A DNA stretch of 37,509 nucleotides. Source: Singulisphaera sp. GP187 (GTDB lineage: Bacteria; Planctomycetota; GCA-002687715). Positions 7,697-35,854 of this stretch are shown here, one piece after another. Under the pieces are notes generated by a model. That model was not told the DNA's origin, did not search any database, and saw nothing but the letters and a program-made list of their open reading frames with translations. Within the stretch, counting starts at the first letter, position 1. Each line of letters starts with the position of its first letter. A program made the position numbers and the translations under genes. Location of the stretch: NCBI GenBank assembly GCA_945907755.1, contig CAMDTN010000025.1, positions 1 through 37,509 of the forward strand, written 5' to 3'.

Positions 7697-7767
7697 CGCA
7701 GGAGGCTCCACTGTTCGAGTAAGTGCCGGATGCTAACAGGGGCTGCCCGCGGAACCGCGCGGCCCAT

Positions 7768-7773
7768 GAGGAG
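7768..7773 (+). promoter_or_regulatory. Shine-Dalgarno sequence fixing the uppP start
   Basis: GAGGAG lies 6 nt before the GTG at 7780. It decides the start in favour of this GTG over the longer ORF, whose extra 19 residues have no family similarity. Confidence 0.75.
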
Positions 7774-7779
7774 AGTTGC

Positions 7780-8595
7780 GTGGACTACGCTCAAGCGTTG
7801 GCTTTGGGAACTTTGCAGGGTCTGGCAGAGTTTCTGCCCATCTCGTCATCGGGGCATCTTGCCATCCTCTCAGCATTGTTCGGGCTCAAGGGCGCGGGCG
7901 ACGGCGCCTTGTTCGAAGTGCTGCTGCACATTGGTTCTGCGGCCGCCATCATGATCGTCTACTGGCCTCGCATTTCGGGCATCTTGCGTGTGATGCATTG
8001 CTTCTTAATGCCATGGACGTGGCGCGGTCGCAGCGCCGATCCTTCCTTCCGCATGGCCACTCTGGTTCTGCTTGGCAGCGTTCCCGCTGGCGTCGTGGGC
8101 CTCACGTGGGGCAGCGAAATCGAAGCGCTGTTCGGTGCCACCAAATTCATCGGTTGGATGCTGCTGGTTACGGGTGGGTTTTTGCTGGCCACGCGCGCGC
8201 TGCGGCCCAAAGAAGGCGCGCTCACGGCAGGGCGCGCGTTCTTCGTGGGCTGTGTGCAAGCGGTGGCCGTGGTCCCTGGCATTTCGCGCAGTGGTTCCAC
8301 CATCTGCAGCGGGTTGGCCAGCGGCTTGCGCCGCGAAACTGCCGGAGAATTCTCTTTCCTGCTGGGCCTCGTGGCCATCGTGGGCGCAAACCTGTTGGAA
8401 ATCCCTAAGCTGAGTGCAGCGTTCGCTGAAGGCGGTTCGCTGCAACTGGGGCCAGTGCTGCTCGGATGCGGCGCAGCTTTTGTGGTCAGTTGGATCAGTC
8501 TGCGCTGGTTGCTGCGATTCGTAGCCAAGGGGCAACTATGGGTGTTCGGCCCTTACTGCCTGCTCGCCGGAGCAGCAACGGTCTTATGGATGTGA
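7780..8595 (+). CDS. uppP: Undecaprenyl-diphosphatase (UppP/BacA)
   Basis: Integral membrane enzyme that dephosphorylates undecaprenyl diphosphate to recycle the lipid carrier for peptidoglycan and other envelope polymers. Overexpression in other bacteria gives bacitracin resistance. The 271 residues match the family length. The two signature regions are present: near the N-terminus EFLPISSSGHLAI with its acidic residue, and mid-protein VPGISRSGSTI. Several hydrophobic helices surround them. The GTG start at 7780 is supported by GAGGAG. It leads a plus-strand series of genes; the next gene starts 37 nt downstream. Confidence 0.95.
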   Translation: MDYAQALALGTLQGLAEFLPISSSGHLAILSALFGLKGAGDGALFEVLLHIGSAAAIMIVYWPRISGILRVMHCFLMPWTWRGRSADPSFRMATLVLLGSVPAGVVGLTWGSEIEALFGATKFIGWMLLVTGGFLLATRALRPKEGALTAGRAFFVGCVQAVAVVPGISRSGSTICSGLASGLRRETAGEFSFLLGLVAIVGANLLEIPKLSAAFAEGGSLQLGPVLLGCGAAFVVSWISLRWLLRFVAKGQLWVFGPYCLLAGAATVLWM

Positions 8596-8632
8596 ACTTG
8601 CGCCTTCGTATGCCTGCGGCGAGAGTTCATGC

Positions 8633-10156
8633 ATGAATCGTGCGCGCGAGCAATTCTTCATGCGCATCGAAGCAGAGTTGGCGCTCTCGGATCAGAACGG
8701 GCCAGCCTTTGTGTTTGGAGTGCCCGAGCGCGCAGTGCTTCACGGCCTAGCGGGTAGCGCGGCAGAGATTGTCTTGCACTGCGGCCAAGGGCGCTTGCGC
8801 GAGTTGCGCAAGTCGCTGCGCGAATCCTTTGCTGTGCCGTTGCACGGCTGTCCGCAAGACGGAGAAGGATTGCCGGTCTACGACCAGCCGTGTGCCACTT
8901 GCGTGGTTGCGGACTTGCCGATGCAAGGCGCGGAAGATGCTTTGGAACGCGCACTTTCCATGGTGGCTGATGGTGGCGCCGTCTGGTTGTTGTTGCCGCG
9001 GCGCAGCGCTGGTGCAGAAGCGCGCTTGCGGCGGCTGTTGGAGGCTGCGTGTCACGGCACTGTGGAATCCGTGGCTGATGCACCAGCGGAAATGTTTGCG
9101 CTGCGTGCACGGCGCTGCTGTACGGTCACCTTGGAGTGCGTTGACGAGCAACCCGCAGCATTGCCGGTCTCGTGCATCGTCGTGACGCGCGGTGCAGAGC
9201 TTGGGTTGGAAGAAACGCTGGTGGACTTGGTGTTGCGCCAGCATTACCGTCCCATGGAAGTGTTCGTGCTGGACTTGGGCGGAGCGAGCGAATTGGATGC
9301 GGCGTTGTTCGGCCTCGCGGAACGCAGCACGGTGCCGGTGGCGCTTTTCCTGAAGCACGGCGCGGCCGAAGCCACTGCGTTGCAGGATGCCATTGGTGGT
9401 GTGCAAGGGCGCTTTGTGCATTGGTGCCACGCGGGTGCACGATTGGCGCCACACTTGCTGACCACGCTCGGCATGGCGCTGGAGCGTGAAGACGGTTGCG
9501 CTCTCGCAATGGCCGAGAGCGCCCGTGAACAGAATGGAAGCTGGAGCGCTCATCGCGCCATTGCGCCGAGTGCGCTTGCGCGGGTTTCGAGCAGTGAGCG
9601 CTTTGCGCCAGAAGCAGTGCTGTGGTCAAGCGCTGCAGTGCGCGCCGCCGCTGGGCCGAATGCTGCGTTCGGAGCCTTTGCCAGCCGCGAATTAGCGTGG
9701 CGCCTGTTGCAACAACAGCGCGGTGTGTGTTTGCCCGCGGTGGTGGCAGGGCACAGTGCGGCGGCGCCGGCAGCAGACGCAAGCTCGTGGCAGAAAGTGC
9801 AGCAGGCACTGCGGCCAGACCCGAAGGGCCTTGCAATTCCGCTGGAATTGCAAGCGTTGATTCACTTGCGCTGCGGCGACGCCGCTTGGGTGACCGAGCA
9901 TATTCAGGGCGACGCGGTGCCGCACTTGTTGCTGCGTAGCCAAGCACTGTTGCACCTAGGGCGTGGGCCAGAGGCCGAAGCAATCCTGCGCCATCCGTTG
10001 CTCTGCGAGCATGCAGCGGCGGCCACACTGCTGTTGGCGCAACGCTGCGCCGCTGATGGTGCCGCCGCGTATTCCGCATTGGTGCTGGCACTGCAGGCTG
10101 CCGGCGTCGACGACGCATGCTGGCTGCTGGAAATGGCCTCAGCGCCAACGTCCTGA
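8633..10156 (+). CDS. Large protein with degenerate glycosyltransferase-2-like middle domain
   Basis: 507 residues, not confidently assignable. The middle (about 180-300) resembles the start of a GT-A family 2 glycosyltransferase: VSCIVVTRG, then LVLRQHYRPMEVFVLDLGG and a later segment GRFVHWCHAGARLAP. The expected metal-binding DXD is not visible there, so catalysis is doubtful. Before it, residues about 30-165 vaguely resemble a class I methyltransferase without a clear GxGxG loop. The C-terminal third is helical, with LLLRSQALLHLGRGPEAEAIL looking like a TPR unit. No signal peptide or membrane helix is apparent. Ala, Leu and Arg dominate. It lies between uppP and the Fe-S genes on the same strand. 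The domain assignments are inference by eye. Confidence 0.5.
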   Translation: MNRAREQFFMRIEAELALSDQNGPAFVFGVPERAVLHGLAGSAAEIVLHCGQGRLRELRKSLRESFAVPLHGCPQDGEGLPVYDQPCATCVVADLPMQGAEDALERALSMVADGGAVWLLLPRRSAGAEARLRRLLEAACHGTVESVADAPAEMFALRARRCCTVTLECVDEQPAALPVSCIVVTRGAELGLEETLVDLVLRQHYRPMEVFVLDLGGASELDAALFGLAERSTVPVALFLKHGAAEATALQDAIGGVQGRFVHWCHAGARLAPHLLTTLGMALEREDGCALAMAESAREQNGSWSAHRAIAPSALARVSSSERFAPEAVLWSSAAVRAAAGPNAAFGAFASRELAWRLLQQQRGVCLPAVVAGHSAAAPAADASSWQKVQQALRPDPKGLAIPLELQALIHLRCGDAAWVTEHIQGDAVPHLLLRSQALLHLGRGPEAEAILRHPLLCEHAAAATLLLAQRCAADGAAAYSALVLALQAAGVDDACWLLEMASAPTS

Positions 10157-29905: not shown

Positions 29906-32192
<2,287 letters not shown>

Positions 32193-32196
<4 letters not shown>

Positions 32197-32519
32197 CGCA
32201 GAATCGCCACCAACGCGCCTTGCAATACTAAGGCCACCACACCTAACAGCATCAGTCGGAGATTGCGAATCTTGTGGCGGAAAAGCAGTGCAGCCATGAG
32301 AAAACCCACAGCGCCTCCGGCGAGGGCTGCGCACGCGAGCACTTTTTCTGGCACTCTCGAGCGCCCTGCACGAGCACGCAACTTGTCGAACCACATCAGG
32401 AAGTAGGTGAGAATGCTGGGCCCAGCCAAGGCTGCGATGGCGGGTTCTGGCGCCAAGCGGAATTGAATCGCCGCCAAAGCGACAGCGAGATTCAGCAAGA
32501 CAACGCTAGCGCAGGCCAA
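32193..32519 (-). CDS. DUF1294 family membrane protein
   Basis: 108-residue protein with three or four membrane helices. The family core is clear: FLMWFDKLRARAGRSRVPEKVLACAALAGGAVGFLMAALLFRHKIR, with the DK-x-RA, RVPE and FRHK landmarks of DUF1294. The start is uncertain. The ORF opens with TTG 32519, 14 bp inside the response-regulator gene; TTG 32498 is another option, and the first ATG (M42) would remove the first helix. Function unknown. Confidence 0.8.
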
Positions 32520-33813
32520 GGCGTTTCATCTTTCGCTGCAATGTGCGCCGGTCGATGCCCAGCATGTCGCTGACGCGACTGACATTGCCACCTTCGCGTT
32601 CCAACATGGCCACAATGTGGCGGCGCTCCGTTGCGCCGAGGGTTTCGCCGTGAGGCACCGTTTCGGTGGAAATCCAACGCTGCGGTTGCAGGCCGAGGGT
32701 TGCGCGCAGCGCCGTTGCGTCCAGCGCGCCTTCTTTCGCCAGCAGCACGGAACGCTCCAGGGCGTGCAGCAATTCGCGCACATTACCGGGCCATGCAGCC
32801 GCGCCGAGCAGTGCCAGTGCATCGTCGGTCAAACTGACGCCGCGTTGCTTCGCTTCAGGGCAACGCGCCAACCAGTCGGAAGCAATGGCGGCGATGTCGC
32901 CACGGCGTTCGCGCAGCGGTGGCAGCACGATGCGCACGACATCCAAGCGCCAGAGCAGTTCTTTGCGGAACCTGCCGGCGGCGCATTCAGCGACAAGGTC
33001 GCGGTCGCTGGCAGCGACGAAGCGGATTTTCACGTGGTGCTCGCTGGTGCCGCCGAGCGGGCGGAACGAGCCGCACTCCACCACGCGCAACAAGCTGGCT
33101 TGCAAGTTGGCGCCGAGCAGCGCGACTTGGTCGATGAACAGGCAGCCGCCGTTGGCGTGGTCTAACAAACCAGCGGTGGCCGCAGCGCCGGGTGCGGCGC
33201 TGCCGAAGAGTTCGGCTTCTAGCAAGTCCGGGCGCGGGCCCGAGCAATCGAGCGTCACAAAAGGTTGGTCTTTGCGCGACGAACTGGTGTGCAGCACTTC
33301 GGCTACGAGGCTCTTGCCGCTGCCGCTTTCACCGAGGATCAGCACGGGGCTCCATGAATCTGCGCTGCGCGCGATGGTGGTGCGCACTTCTTCCATCGAG
33401 GGGGAATTGCCAAGCAGGCGCGTCAGCGCCGCGGCATCGGCTTTGCGCGATCGTGCCGCCAAGCGCAATGCCGTGGCGACATCTTCAGCGTCGCAGGGTT
33501 TTTGCAAATAATCGAAAGCACCGGCGCGGATGGCCTCGATGGCCGAAGGAACACTGCCGTGCCCCGTGAGGATCACCACCGGCAGCGTTGCGTCACGCGC
33601 GCGCATCGTGCGCATCAATTCCAAGCCGTCCATGCCGGGCATGCGCAAATCCAACAACGCCACTTGGGGCGCACCCGCCTGGAACAAGTCCAGGGCTTCA
33701 GCCGCACCACCGGCAGCACGCACGTTGCAACCGCGGCGCGTGAGTGCCCGCGTCAGCGTGCGACGAAAGACTTCGTCGTCGTCAGCGAATAAGACATCCA
33801 GCGTCTGGCTCAT
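32506..33813 (-). CDS. NtrC-type response regulator with degenerate AAA+ domain
   Basis: Receiver (about 1-118), AAA+ (about 132-370) and Fis-type helix-turn-helix (about 395-435), 435 residues. The receiver is intact: acidic pair DDD (11-13), phospho-acceptor D55 in LLDLRMPGMDG, and K105. Walker A is GESGSGKS (161-168). The sigma-54 contact loop normally reading GAFTGA is GAAATA (209-214), and the Walker B glutamate is replaced: LFIDQV, Q229 instead of Glu. RFRKELLWRL and the AWPGNVREL block are conserved. It probably binds DNA and responds to phosphorylation but may not open sigma-54 complexes; this is inference from residues. Starts one base inside the kinase gene end (TGATG). Confidence 0.9.
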   Translation of the reverse strand: MSQTLDVLFADDDEVFRRTLTRALTRRGCNVRAAGGAAEALDLFQAGAPQVALLDLRMPGMDGLELMRTMRARDATLPVVILTGHGSVPSAIEAIRAGAFDYLQKPCDAEDVATALRLAARSRKADAAALTRLLGNSPSMEEVRTTIARSADSWSPVLILGESGSGKSLVAEVLHTSSSRKDQPFVTLDCSGPRPDLLEAELFGSAAPGAAATAGLLDHANGGCLFIDQVALLGANLQASLLRVVECGSFRPLGGTSEHHVKIRFVAASDRDLVAECAAGRFRKELLWRLDVVRIVLPPLRERRGDIAAIASDWLARCPEAKQRGVSLTDDALALLGAAAWPGNVRELLHALERSVLLAKEGALDATALRATLGLQPQRWISTETVPHGETLGATERRHIVAMLEREGGNVSRVSDMLGIDRRTLQRKMKRLGLR

Positions 33814-35450
33814 CAATGCGTCGTCACAGGTAGTTCAAGGTGGAGGCATGCGCCCTGCGGGCGCGGCTCGAGGGCGATGCGCCCCCCCAGATTCTGCACG
33901 ATCTCGAACGATACATAGAGCCCAAGCCCAGTGCCTTCGCCTTGGCCCTTGGTGGTGAAAAACGGCTCGAACAGGCGCGGAAGGTGTTCGGGGCTGAGTC
34001 CGTGGCCTTCGTCCTCGATGTCCACCATGACGCGGCCTTCGCTGGCTGTGGTGCTTACGCGGATGGCGCCGCCGCTGCTTTTGGTGGCATCCACCGCGTT
34101 GTCGAGCCCGTTCAGCAGCACTTGCAAGAGTTGGTCGCGCGAGGTGTGCAGCGCTGGCACGGGCCCCAGCTCGCGCACTTCAATGCGGCTGCGCAGGGCG
34201 GGGTCGCGCAGCGACACCAATTGCACCGCTTCGCGCACCAGCGCGGTGACATCCAGCGATTCCATGCGCGGACTTCCTGGGTGGGCAAGGTCGAGGAAGC
34301 GGCGCACCAGCCCGCTGATGCGCTCGGTCTCGCCGCGAATCTCCGTGAGGCGCACCGAGCAGTCTTTCAAGTGACCACAGGATTCATGGCCACCGCGTGC
34401 GATCTCTTCACTGCATTCCTCGGCGAGTAACCGCACCGAAGCCAAAGGAGTGTTGATCTCATGCGCCATGCCGGCGGCAAGGCGCCCGAGGGCTGCGAGC
34501 TTTTCCGTGCCATGCAATTGGCGTTCGGCGGCACGGCGCGCAGTGACATCAGTGGCGACCACCACAATTTGCGTTGCGCCACCCTGGACTCGGGTCCACT
34601 TCGCCCCTAACGCATGGTGCCGCACGCGGCCATCGGCGTGGCGGCGTTCGATGTGCGTTTCCAACTGGTCCACGCGCTGCAAGTCTTCGTCGCGAGGCCA
34701 CGCTTGGCCTTCCACCAGCAAGCGTGTTCCCACGCGCAATTCAGGCAGAATCGCCAACGCCTGCGCATTGTGCCACTGCAAATAGCCGAGCCCGTCGGTC
34801 ATCAGCAGTCCCGCGCCAACAGCGGTAATCGCCGCTTCCAAACGCAAGCGCTCGCGCTCGGCTTCAGCGTGGTAATGCGCTGCGTCTAATTCCCGCGCGC
34901 GCAGGTCGTCCATGATGCGCAGCGCAAAAGGCGTTGCAATGGCGCAGGTGATCAGCAACGCAAAAGCCAAGCCCCACTGCAAACTCGCGCCCTGCGGCAA
35001 CGCGGCACCGCTGCCTGCGCCGGGCAACATGTCCGTGGCACCAAGCCCTGCGAGCAACAACAGCAGCAACGCAGCCAAGCTGCTCACCGGCACTACAAGA
35101 GATGGAACGAGAATCGCCGCGAGCACCACCTGCACCACGACGAAAATGGCGAACGGGTTCAACAGGCCACCGGTCAAGGCCAGCAAGCCGCTTAGCAGCA
35201 GCAAGTCCAACGCCAACTGCGAGCCTGTGGATTGGGGCGTGAGTCCGCGTCGTTCACGCCATGTCAGCCATCCATTCCACGCGGCCAACAGCAACACGAT
35301 GGAGTAGGGCGGCCACCACACCGGCAACAACCCCAGCACAGGCCCAGTCGCTAGCAACACAGCGAGCACGCCAACCACAGCAACCCAGCGCAGTTGGAGC
35401 AGCCGATGGTTGGGGTCGGGGCGGAGGCTGGCATTGCCGCTTGGGGTCAT
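33813..35450 (-). CDS. Membrane sensor histidine kinase
   Basis: 545-residue sensor kinase partnering the degenerate regulator. Six or so hydrophobic helices fill residues 20-180, a RegB-like arrangement with little extracytoplasmic loop. A PAS-like segment (about 200-305) precedes the HisKA domain with GRLAAGMAHEINTPLASV (phospho-acceptor H330). The ATPase has an N box (LLNGLDNAVDA, N447/N451), G1 (DEGHGLS, 480-486), F (FEPFFTTKG) and G2 (GEGTGLGL, 504-511). All catalytic boxes look intact. ATG 35450 follows a possible weak site. It shares a TGATG junction with the regulator. Confidence 0.92.
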   Translation of the reverse strand: MTPSGNASLRPDPNHRLLQLRWVAVVGVLAVLLATGPVLGLLPVWWPPYSIVLLLAAWNGWLTWRERRGLTPQSTGSQLALDLLLLSGLLALTGGLLNPFAIFVVVQVVLAAILVPSLVVPVSSLAALLLLLLAGLGATDMLPGAGSGAALPQGASLQWGLAFALLITCAIATPFALRIMDDLRARELDAAHYHAEAERERLRLEAAITAVGAGLLMTDGLGYLQWHNAQALAILPELRVGTRLLVEGQAWPRDEDLQRVDQLETHIERRHADGRVRHHALGAKWTRVQGGATQIVVVATDVTARRAAERQLHGTEKLAALGRLAAGMAHEINTPLASVRLLAEECSEEIARGGHESCGHLKDCSVRLTEIRGETERISGLVRRFLDLAHPGSPRMESLDVTALVREAVQLVSLRDPALRSRIEVRELGPVPALHTSRDQLLQVLLNGLDNAVDATKSSGGAIRVSTTASEGRVMVDIEDEGHGLSPEHLPRLFEPFFTTKGQGEGTGLGLYVSFEIVQNLGGRIALEPRPQGACLHLELPVTTH

Positions 35451-35491: not shown

Positions 35492-35731
35492 TTACTCGCC
35501 GCCGGTGTCGTCGGGACCAGTCGGCAGTGCAGTGGGCTCGGCCACCTTGCGGTAACCCAGCGAGCGCGCGATGAGCAAAACCTCGGTCCACGAGGGGAAT
35601 GGCCGCCCTTTGCGCGTTTTGTAGAGCTCGATGGCTTGAATGAACTCCAGCGCCTCGGCGTTCACCGCTGTAGAAAACCGTGACTTGCGCTCTAACGGCT
35701 TGGGTCTCTTGACGCTTTGCTTAGTGGGCAT
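35492..35731 (-). CDS. Small conserved protein of unknown function
   Basis: 79 residues, predicted cytoplasmic. It starts with a Lys/Arg-rich segment ([19 protein letters not shown]), then a compact region [42 protein letters not shown], likely helical, and an acidic tail. I recall similar small proteins in planctomycetes but can name no function. ATG 35731 has GAGGAAG at good spacing; the longer in-frame ORF lacks such support. It lies 41 bp upstream of the kinase gene on the same strand. Confidence 0.65.
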
Positions 35732-35854
35732 GGCACTTCCTCGTGATGCTGCAGCACCGATGTCGTTGCTATCGGCGCGTGAGGGGTACGAGCGTGAATG
35801 GGCACTAAGCAACCCGGCTGCACACATTTGCATGGTGCGCTAGGGCGTTGGCGC

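Follow-up and report, generated by a model that had tools for sequence, protein, structure and literature searches.

The window analysed in this study, a stretch of 37,509 nt from Singulisphaera sp. GP187 (contig CAMDTN010000025.1, assembly GCA_945907755.1), encodes an NtrC-like response regulator whose AAA+ domain has no GAFTGA motif and carries glutamine in place of the catalytic Walker B glutamate. We consider it reasonably probable that this protein is a former sigma-54 activator that has become an ATP-binding, essentially non-hydrolysing regulator, which works independently of sigma-54. More tentatively, and with somewhat less confidence than we have in that general statement, we propose that it may be a natural ATP-locked bEBP, in which a Walker B Gln and a switch Asp, combined with replacement of the Walker A Glu and the loss of both the sensor I Asn and the L1 loop, would have turned a remodelling motor into a static ring or dimer, glued by ATP, that positions DNA for the housekeeping polymerase.

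Results

Domain organization of the regulator

The regulator gene lies on the minus strand at positions 32506–33813 (ATG at 33813–33811, stop codon at 32508–32506), as do all parts of it described here. Its product of 435 aa has the order receiver, AAA+ and Fis-type HTH, and the ORF gave Pfam matches to Response_reg, Sigma54_activat, AAA_lid_14 and HTH_8, all above the cut-off. The receiver domain (33460–33813, Response_reg) has its phospho-acceptor D55 at 33649–33651, and both D12 and D55 are invariant in an alignment of 35 sequences (alignment A2). The Walker A motif reads GESGSGKS (33310–33333); K167 is retained and Ser168 stands at the position of the bEBP glutamate (PspF E43). According to the alignment, the switch residue is Asp189 (33247–33249; PspF N64), and the L1 loop (33172–33201), which is shortened and without GAFTGA, consists of residues 205–214 with the sequence SAAPGAAATA. 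Walker B reads LFIDQ, with FIDQ at 33127–33138, where D228 is retained and Q229 (codon 33127–33129) replaces the catalytic glutamate (PspF E108). At sensor I, Asp270 (33004–33006) is found in place of the asparagine (PspF N149). The arginine-finger motif RKELLWR (32947–32967) retains R283 and R289 (PspF R162 and R168), with Glu285 at the position of PspF D164, and the sensor II arginine is likewise retained as Arg346 (32776–32778; PspF R227). The best-conserved part of the protein is the Fis-type DNA-binding domain (32509–32643, HTH_8), which is 96 % identical to that of G001, another genome of the genus.

Orthologues and gene neighbourhood

The comparison covered the window genome (G000), two other genomes of the genus (G001 and G002) and three sister genera of the same family (G003 to G005). 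One close match to the regulator was found in each of these six family genomes, the window's own included, with protein identities of 81 % and 68 % in the two other genus genomes and 53–54 % in the three sister genera. By tblastn, the order orf113, kinase, regulator, cupredoxin-like, thiC, ResB is present in all five other stretches, mtnA in four and purE in three of them (in G005 the contig starts only at orf113, and in G003 the stretch only near mtnA); because gene order is shared, the six family regulators are true orthologues. Among the matches listed in a scan of genome contigs there were only NtrC relatives at 31–40 % identity and no further orthologues. Placed in a tree together with 49 other bEBPs, the six orthologues group as one clade (support 0.991), and the genus regulators are a clade with support 1.0 and a long stem of 0.55. 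The excess sits in the AAA+ part, with values of 0.89–0.94 for the genus versus 0.37–0.50 for the sister genera in the tree analysis, while the HTH shows no acceleration in the genus. A smaller excess is seen in the receiver (0.67–0.75 versus 0.35–0.45), and that the faster evolution hits this domain too counts against the reading preferred here.

Downstream of the regulator, on the minus strand, are genes for a DUF1294 protein (32193–32519, Pfam) and for a cupredoxin-like protein (31372–32394), which was recognised by eye from HTA...CDMHPWM and has no Pfam match. Each of the six genomes has the cupredoxin-like gene a short way downstream of the regulator, and the true start of the protein probably lies inside the ORF. 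Just upstream of the kinase gene, positions 35492–35833 encode a 113-aa protein without a Pfam match, which is present in the five other stretches as well. The neighbours include cytochrome c assembly proteins (ResB, Cytochrom_C_asm), and an Rfam scan of the window gave no family at the gathering score.

Residues lost and kept in the genus

All three genus genomes lack GAFTGA and have FIDQ as Walker B, whereas the three sister genera have GAFTGA and FIDE. Following ELFG, the window regulator has a loop that lacks four residues relative to the sister-genus orthologues, which means that GAFTGA was deleted and not merely point-mutated, and the shortened L1 sequence varies among the three genus species. 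The position of PspF E43 is Ser, Ser and Asn in the genus and Glu in the sister genera; that of N64 is Asp in all three genus genomes and Asn in all three sister genera; that of E108 is Gln versus Glu; and sensor I (PspF N149) is Asp, Asp and Gly versus Asn. The equivalents of PspF K42, D107, R162, R168 and R227 are retained in all six orthologues. When we considered the 62 AAA+ columns that are at least 85 % conserved in 146 other domains, leaving out columns deleted in the window, the genus trio was found to keep 50, to disagree internally at six and to have jointly lost six. Since the sister genera also deviate at three of the joint losses (227, 240 and 350), the genus-specific losses among conserved columns come down to the Walker A Glu, the L1 loop and the Walker B Glu. 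Receiver and AAA+ domain are joined by a linker of 53, 53 and 54 residues in the genus, which is 11–12 residues shorter than in the sister genera (65); it has 57–71 residues in 23 of 34 survey proteins, namely those measurable by script. The dN/dS ratios of the AAA+ core, which are rough because dS is near saturation, come to 0.13, 0.24 and 0.18 in the three comparisons within the genus, as against 0.14 and 0.18 in two sister pairs. As judged from the coding sequences, the AAA+ core is under purifying selection and the protein is being kept.

A preliminary description of this DNA, made from the window's letters, had reported an ORF at this place with a GAAATA loop, an FIDQ Walker B motif and a conserved receiver, Walker A and Fis-type HTH, all of which agrees with the ORF, the Pfam matches and our alignment. 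It had also read the protein as having lost both sigma-54 contact and the catalytic glutamate, and this now extends to all three genus genomes. Its view of GAAATA as standing in for GAFTGA is correct in that the motif is absent, but the loop, being four residues shorter, is not that of a point mutant. It had further reasoned that intact orthologues would speak for an error or isolated decay; orthologues in the three sister genera are indeed intact, but those of the genus are all altered, and the change is therefore a fixed one of the lineage and not isolated decay. To these losses we can add the switch Asn-to-Asp change, the Walker A Glu replaced by Ser, Ser and Asn, and the lost sensor I Asn.

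Sequencing error or isolated decay was rejected, the same state and open frames being found in two more genus genomes and dN/dS being low. Loss of sigma-54 from the genus was rejected as a cause as well: rpoN (PF04552) is present in G000, G001 and G002, so that sigma-54 was not lost alongside, and the intact Walker B pattern has four matches in other genes of G000.

Rarity of a Walker B glutamine

At the Walker B Glu position, 148 distinct AAA+ domains (the window's excluded; 90 from named records and 58 from genomes of the window's phylum), which are not a random sample because the loci were fetched as relatives or family members, have Glu in 139, Asp in six and Gln in three cases. Gln occurs in the two genus orthologues and in a single further bEBP, from the phylum genome G048, whose GAFTGA is intact. 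The Walker A Glu position is Glu in 131, and the sensor I position Asn in 106, of these other domains. The switch position is Asp in ten of the 148, seven with a Walker B Glu and three with Gln, and on these counts Asp–Gln as a coupled pair is only suggestive. The G048 bEBP (locus L188, 885–2963) combines its intact GAFTGA with an FLDQ Walker B motif and a switch Asp, and otherwise looks like a normal sigma-54 activator.

A strict Walker B pattern with Gln had one match each in five of 392 phylum genomes, namely the three genus genomes, G048, where it marks the real bEBP, and G378, where a search of the matching stretch at E 1e-15 found no bEBP. With Glu instead, the pattern had 759 matches in 99 genomes, the Gln and Glu searches covering different genome numbers. 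A looser Gln pattern had 35 matches in 33 of 392 genomes, 30 of them with a locus and five without. When ORFs of at least 150 aa from the strict and loose Gln loci, the window's own excluded, were searched with profiles, bEBP domains were found only in the genus loci and G048 among the 33 Gln-pattern loci, and no bEBP was seen in the ORFs of six loose-Gln loci outside the genus. The scarcity of Gln matches in these 392 phylum genomes rules out that a Walker B Gln is a common variant there. As a separate observation, the regulators at loci L090, L091, L095, L106, L110, L117, L132 and L142 have a loop without GAFTGA and a Walker B Asp–Glu; these eight are probably NtrX-like proteins, mostly of Alphaproteobacteria.

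The cognate kinase

The stop codon of the cognate histidine kinase gene (33813–35450, minus strand) overlaps the regulator ATG by one base. The kinase consists of a hydrophobic N-terminal part with GGLLNPF, a PAS-like part, HisKA and HATPase; the first two were called by eye and the PAS-like part has no Pfam match. NPF is present in all six kinase orthologues and GGLxNPF, a motif of RegB, in five of them. The ActS/PrrB/RegB model NF033792 matches the kinase with an E value of 7e-45 and 153.5 bits, but its cut-off is 350 and a higher score (175.6) comes from the generic AtoS model, so that the term RegB-like rests mostly on GGLxNPF. The regulator is the partner in a RegB-like, probably redox-sensing two-component pair, and a redox signal for the kinase is plausible. 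In all three genus kinases, and in none of the three from sister genera, there is a Cys 16 residues past the phospho-acceptor His, with more Cys nearby. RegB has a redox-active Cys in the same helical region, and the genus Cys could give the kinase an additional redox input, acquired at the time when the regulator was altered. The G002 kinase (locus L191, about 7700–8980) is, by eye, without the PAS-like segment between the hydrophobic part and HisKA that is present in the other five.

Structural model and search for target sites

The AlphaFold model of the regulator has an intact AAA+ fold with a mean pLDDT of 91.5. It matches NtrC1 with a Z score of 30.2 (1.5 Å over 242 residues) and PspF E108Q with ATP with a Z score of 27.8 (2.5 Å over 239), and it is also close to the NtrC1 Walker B mutant. 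Asp189 and Gln229 are placed at or just past the ends of strands 185–189 and 224–228.

In the six gene clusters (G000 to G005, in this order), a −24/−12 scan returned 3, 2, 1, 0, 1 and 0 weak hits, where 1.05, 0.75, 0.57, 0.25, 0.23 and 0.17 were expected, a slight excess in the genus; there was no hit in the sister clusters G003 and G005. Counts of a RegA-like dyad stayed close to the shuffled mean or under it in five of the six clusters; in G004 there were 22, against a shuffled mean of 14.3 and maximum of 21. The two scans of the six clusters revealed no binding site or target promoter.

Discussion

The residues altered in the genus are ones that have been mutated in PspF (papers are cited here by PMC number, for what their available parts state). 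Vmax values of 39.5 for wild-type PspF, 1.37 for E43A, 1.50 for N64Q and 0.07 for E108Q have been reported (PMC3419264), and the E108Q protein binds ATP about 30-fold more tightly, is a hexamer with or without nucleotide, hydrolyses at less than 1 % and has its glutamate switch stuck in one conformation with any nucleotide (PMC4132715). PspF E108Q, as far as the available accounts go, still remodels sigma-54 complexes, and the Gln alone is therefore no proof of lost activation. With three PspF-critical positions changed and no sigma-54 loop, neither useful hydrolysis nor engagement of sigma-54 is expected, though we infer the size of the effect, because the genus residues (Asp at N64, Ser or Asn at E43) differ from the PspF mutants that were measured in the parts available to us. 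The preliminary description had compared the protein with GAFTGA-less regulators of the TyrR/HupR type, a likeness that the literature bears out (PMC3162934, in part), and had suggested a nucleotide-binding switch or a repressor. Rather than a switch, a locked state is likelier, since PspF E108Q is, in the text available, fixed in one conformation and the partner Asn is changed here too.

In the scheme that we favour, the ancestor would have been an ordinary sigma-54 activator, and on the genus stem its AAA+ domain would have lost the sigma-54 contact loop and the ATP-hydrolysing residues and been kept as an ATP-binding assembly platform. To judge from the residues kept, the regulator may still bind ATP and pack via its arginine fingers. 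The kinase would phosphorylate D55; the regulator would bind ATP tightly with barely any hydrolysis; and its AAA+ domains, held together by the intact arginine fingers, would form a dimer or ring offering several Fis-type HTHs to DNA. This static complex would activate or repress ordinary sigma-70 promoters, the most likely place for it to act. What is known of Caulobacter NtrC counts against a static reading, as this GAFTGA-less protein appears, in the available part of the report, to need Walker A and Walker B residues (PMC10274813), and sigma-54 gene expression still rises with some of its mutants (PMC12421884, in part). That our scans yielded neither a binding site nor a target promoter also counts against it.

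A rather unlikely but still serious alternative is that the AAA+ domain now serves only as a folded spacer or dimerization domain for which nucleotide is irrelevant, as in VpsR, which is stated to require no ATP (PMC10274813, in part), or in DhaR of Escherichia coli, which is without the Walker B Asp/Glu pair, both arginine fingers and sensor II. The varying Walker A (Ser or Asn) and sensor I positions of the genus and its shortened linker fit this idea. However, unlike DhaR, all three genus proteins keep the Walker A Gly and Lys, the Walker B Asp, both arginine fingers and sensor II, and the keeping of these nucleotide- and subunit-contact residues suggests that the contacts are still selected. 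It seems improbable that the carboxylate has merely been relocated, the Asn/Glu pair becoming Asp/Gln so that Asp189 would polarise the water and the protein would still be an ATPase. The fixation of Asp189 together with Gln229 in the three genus genomes, the modelled position of both at or near their strand ends and the same Asp and Gln in the unrelated G048 bEBP, which is of the same phylum and has GAFTGA, would agree with such an exchange. Yet the G048 protein is one case only, seven other domains have a switch Asp with a normal Glu, so that Asp is not tied specifically to Gln, and the changes extend to the Walker A Glu and the sensor I Asn. We give very little weight to a slow or static sigma-54 factor that would engage sigma-54 in another mode and modulate other activators: RpoN is present in the genus, and some mutants of the GAFTGA-less Caulobacter NtrC still raise sigma-54 gene expression (PMC12421884, in part), but the L1 loop has been cut short and varies in sequence between the three species, as one would expect of a loop without a contact partner. 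That the regulator is becoming a pseudogene in a genus of small genomes (2.6–2.9 Mb versus 5.1–6.1 Mb in the sister genera) is already disfavoured and hardly credible, since all three species have open frames, dN/dS is low, the HTH has hardly changed and the kinase gene still lies next to the regulator gene.

Comparison with known systems

With a static, ATP-binding regulator as the preferred reading, several known proteins invite comparison. GAFTGA-less bEBPs that act at sigma-70 promoters include, in the papers as available, TyrR, DhaR and HupR (PMC3162934) and the NtrC proteins of Rhodobacter capsulatus and Caulobacter (PMC10274813), and for R. capsulatus NtrC it is stated that ATP binding, not hydrolysis, is essential (PMC10274813). 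These two NtrC proteins share the receiver/AAA+/Fis architecture and the deleted L1 loop, but they serve nitrogen genes with NtrB, whereas the window regulator pairs with a RegB-like kinase; the Walker B Asp that Caulobacter NtrC is described as needing (same source) is followed by Gln in the window regulator. Brucella NtrX, to which a Foldseek search with the whole model gave the matches with the best E-values, has the same architecture and a loop without GAFTGA, but keeps the Walker B Glu (YLDE), as do eight of nine survey domains clearly without GAFTGA, in which Asp–Glu is found. E. coli TyrR, which is not known to have a receiver, differs in that the switch Asn, the Walker B Asp–Glu and the arginine fingers are all kept. 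Its GAFTGA is deleted, as here, and it is described as sigma-70-dependent (PMC3162934, in part). E. coli DhaR is alike in lacking GAFTGA and the Walker B Glu (it has LEK there), but besides losing the arginine fingers and sensor II it has kept the switch Asn. The laboratory mutant PspF E108Q, of which the window regulator would be a natural counterpart, carries the same Glu-to-Gln change, but there it was engineered as the only alteration, and GAFTGA and N64 are untouched. The RegB/RegA systems (PrrB/PrrA, ActS/ActR) resemble the present pair in the kinase GGLxNPF and the sub-cut-off match to the family model, but the window regulator carries an AAA+ domain. Regulators of the RegA type consist of receiver and HTH and are not known to have an AAA+ domain. 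With NtrC-type group 1 bEBPs, finally, the regulator shares the domain set and a host sigma-54 gene, but it has lost GAFTGA, the Walker B Asp–Glu and the switch Asn.

In the literature searched, which was mostly non-subscription and available in part, we found no natural GAFTGA-less bEBP with a Walker B Gln. GAFTGA-less bEBPs as such are already known; what appears to be new, on sequence grounds, is that hydrolysis residues are gone while binding and subunit-contact residues are kept. Escape from sigma-54 has so far been known from a few scattered cases, namely TyrR, HupR, R. capsulatus NtrC, DhaR and VpsR. Here the change falls between sister genera, in a conserved neighbourhood and with sigma-54 still encoded, and it hits the residues that PspF mutagenesis links to hydrolysis and sigma-54 contact while sparing those for ATP binding and subunit contact. 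The system therefore lets one ask what role an AAA+ domain has once it is no motor and, if the ATP-locked reading is true, the sister genera with their intact motor would permit a stepwise dissection of the change.
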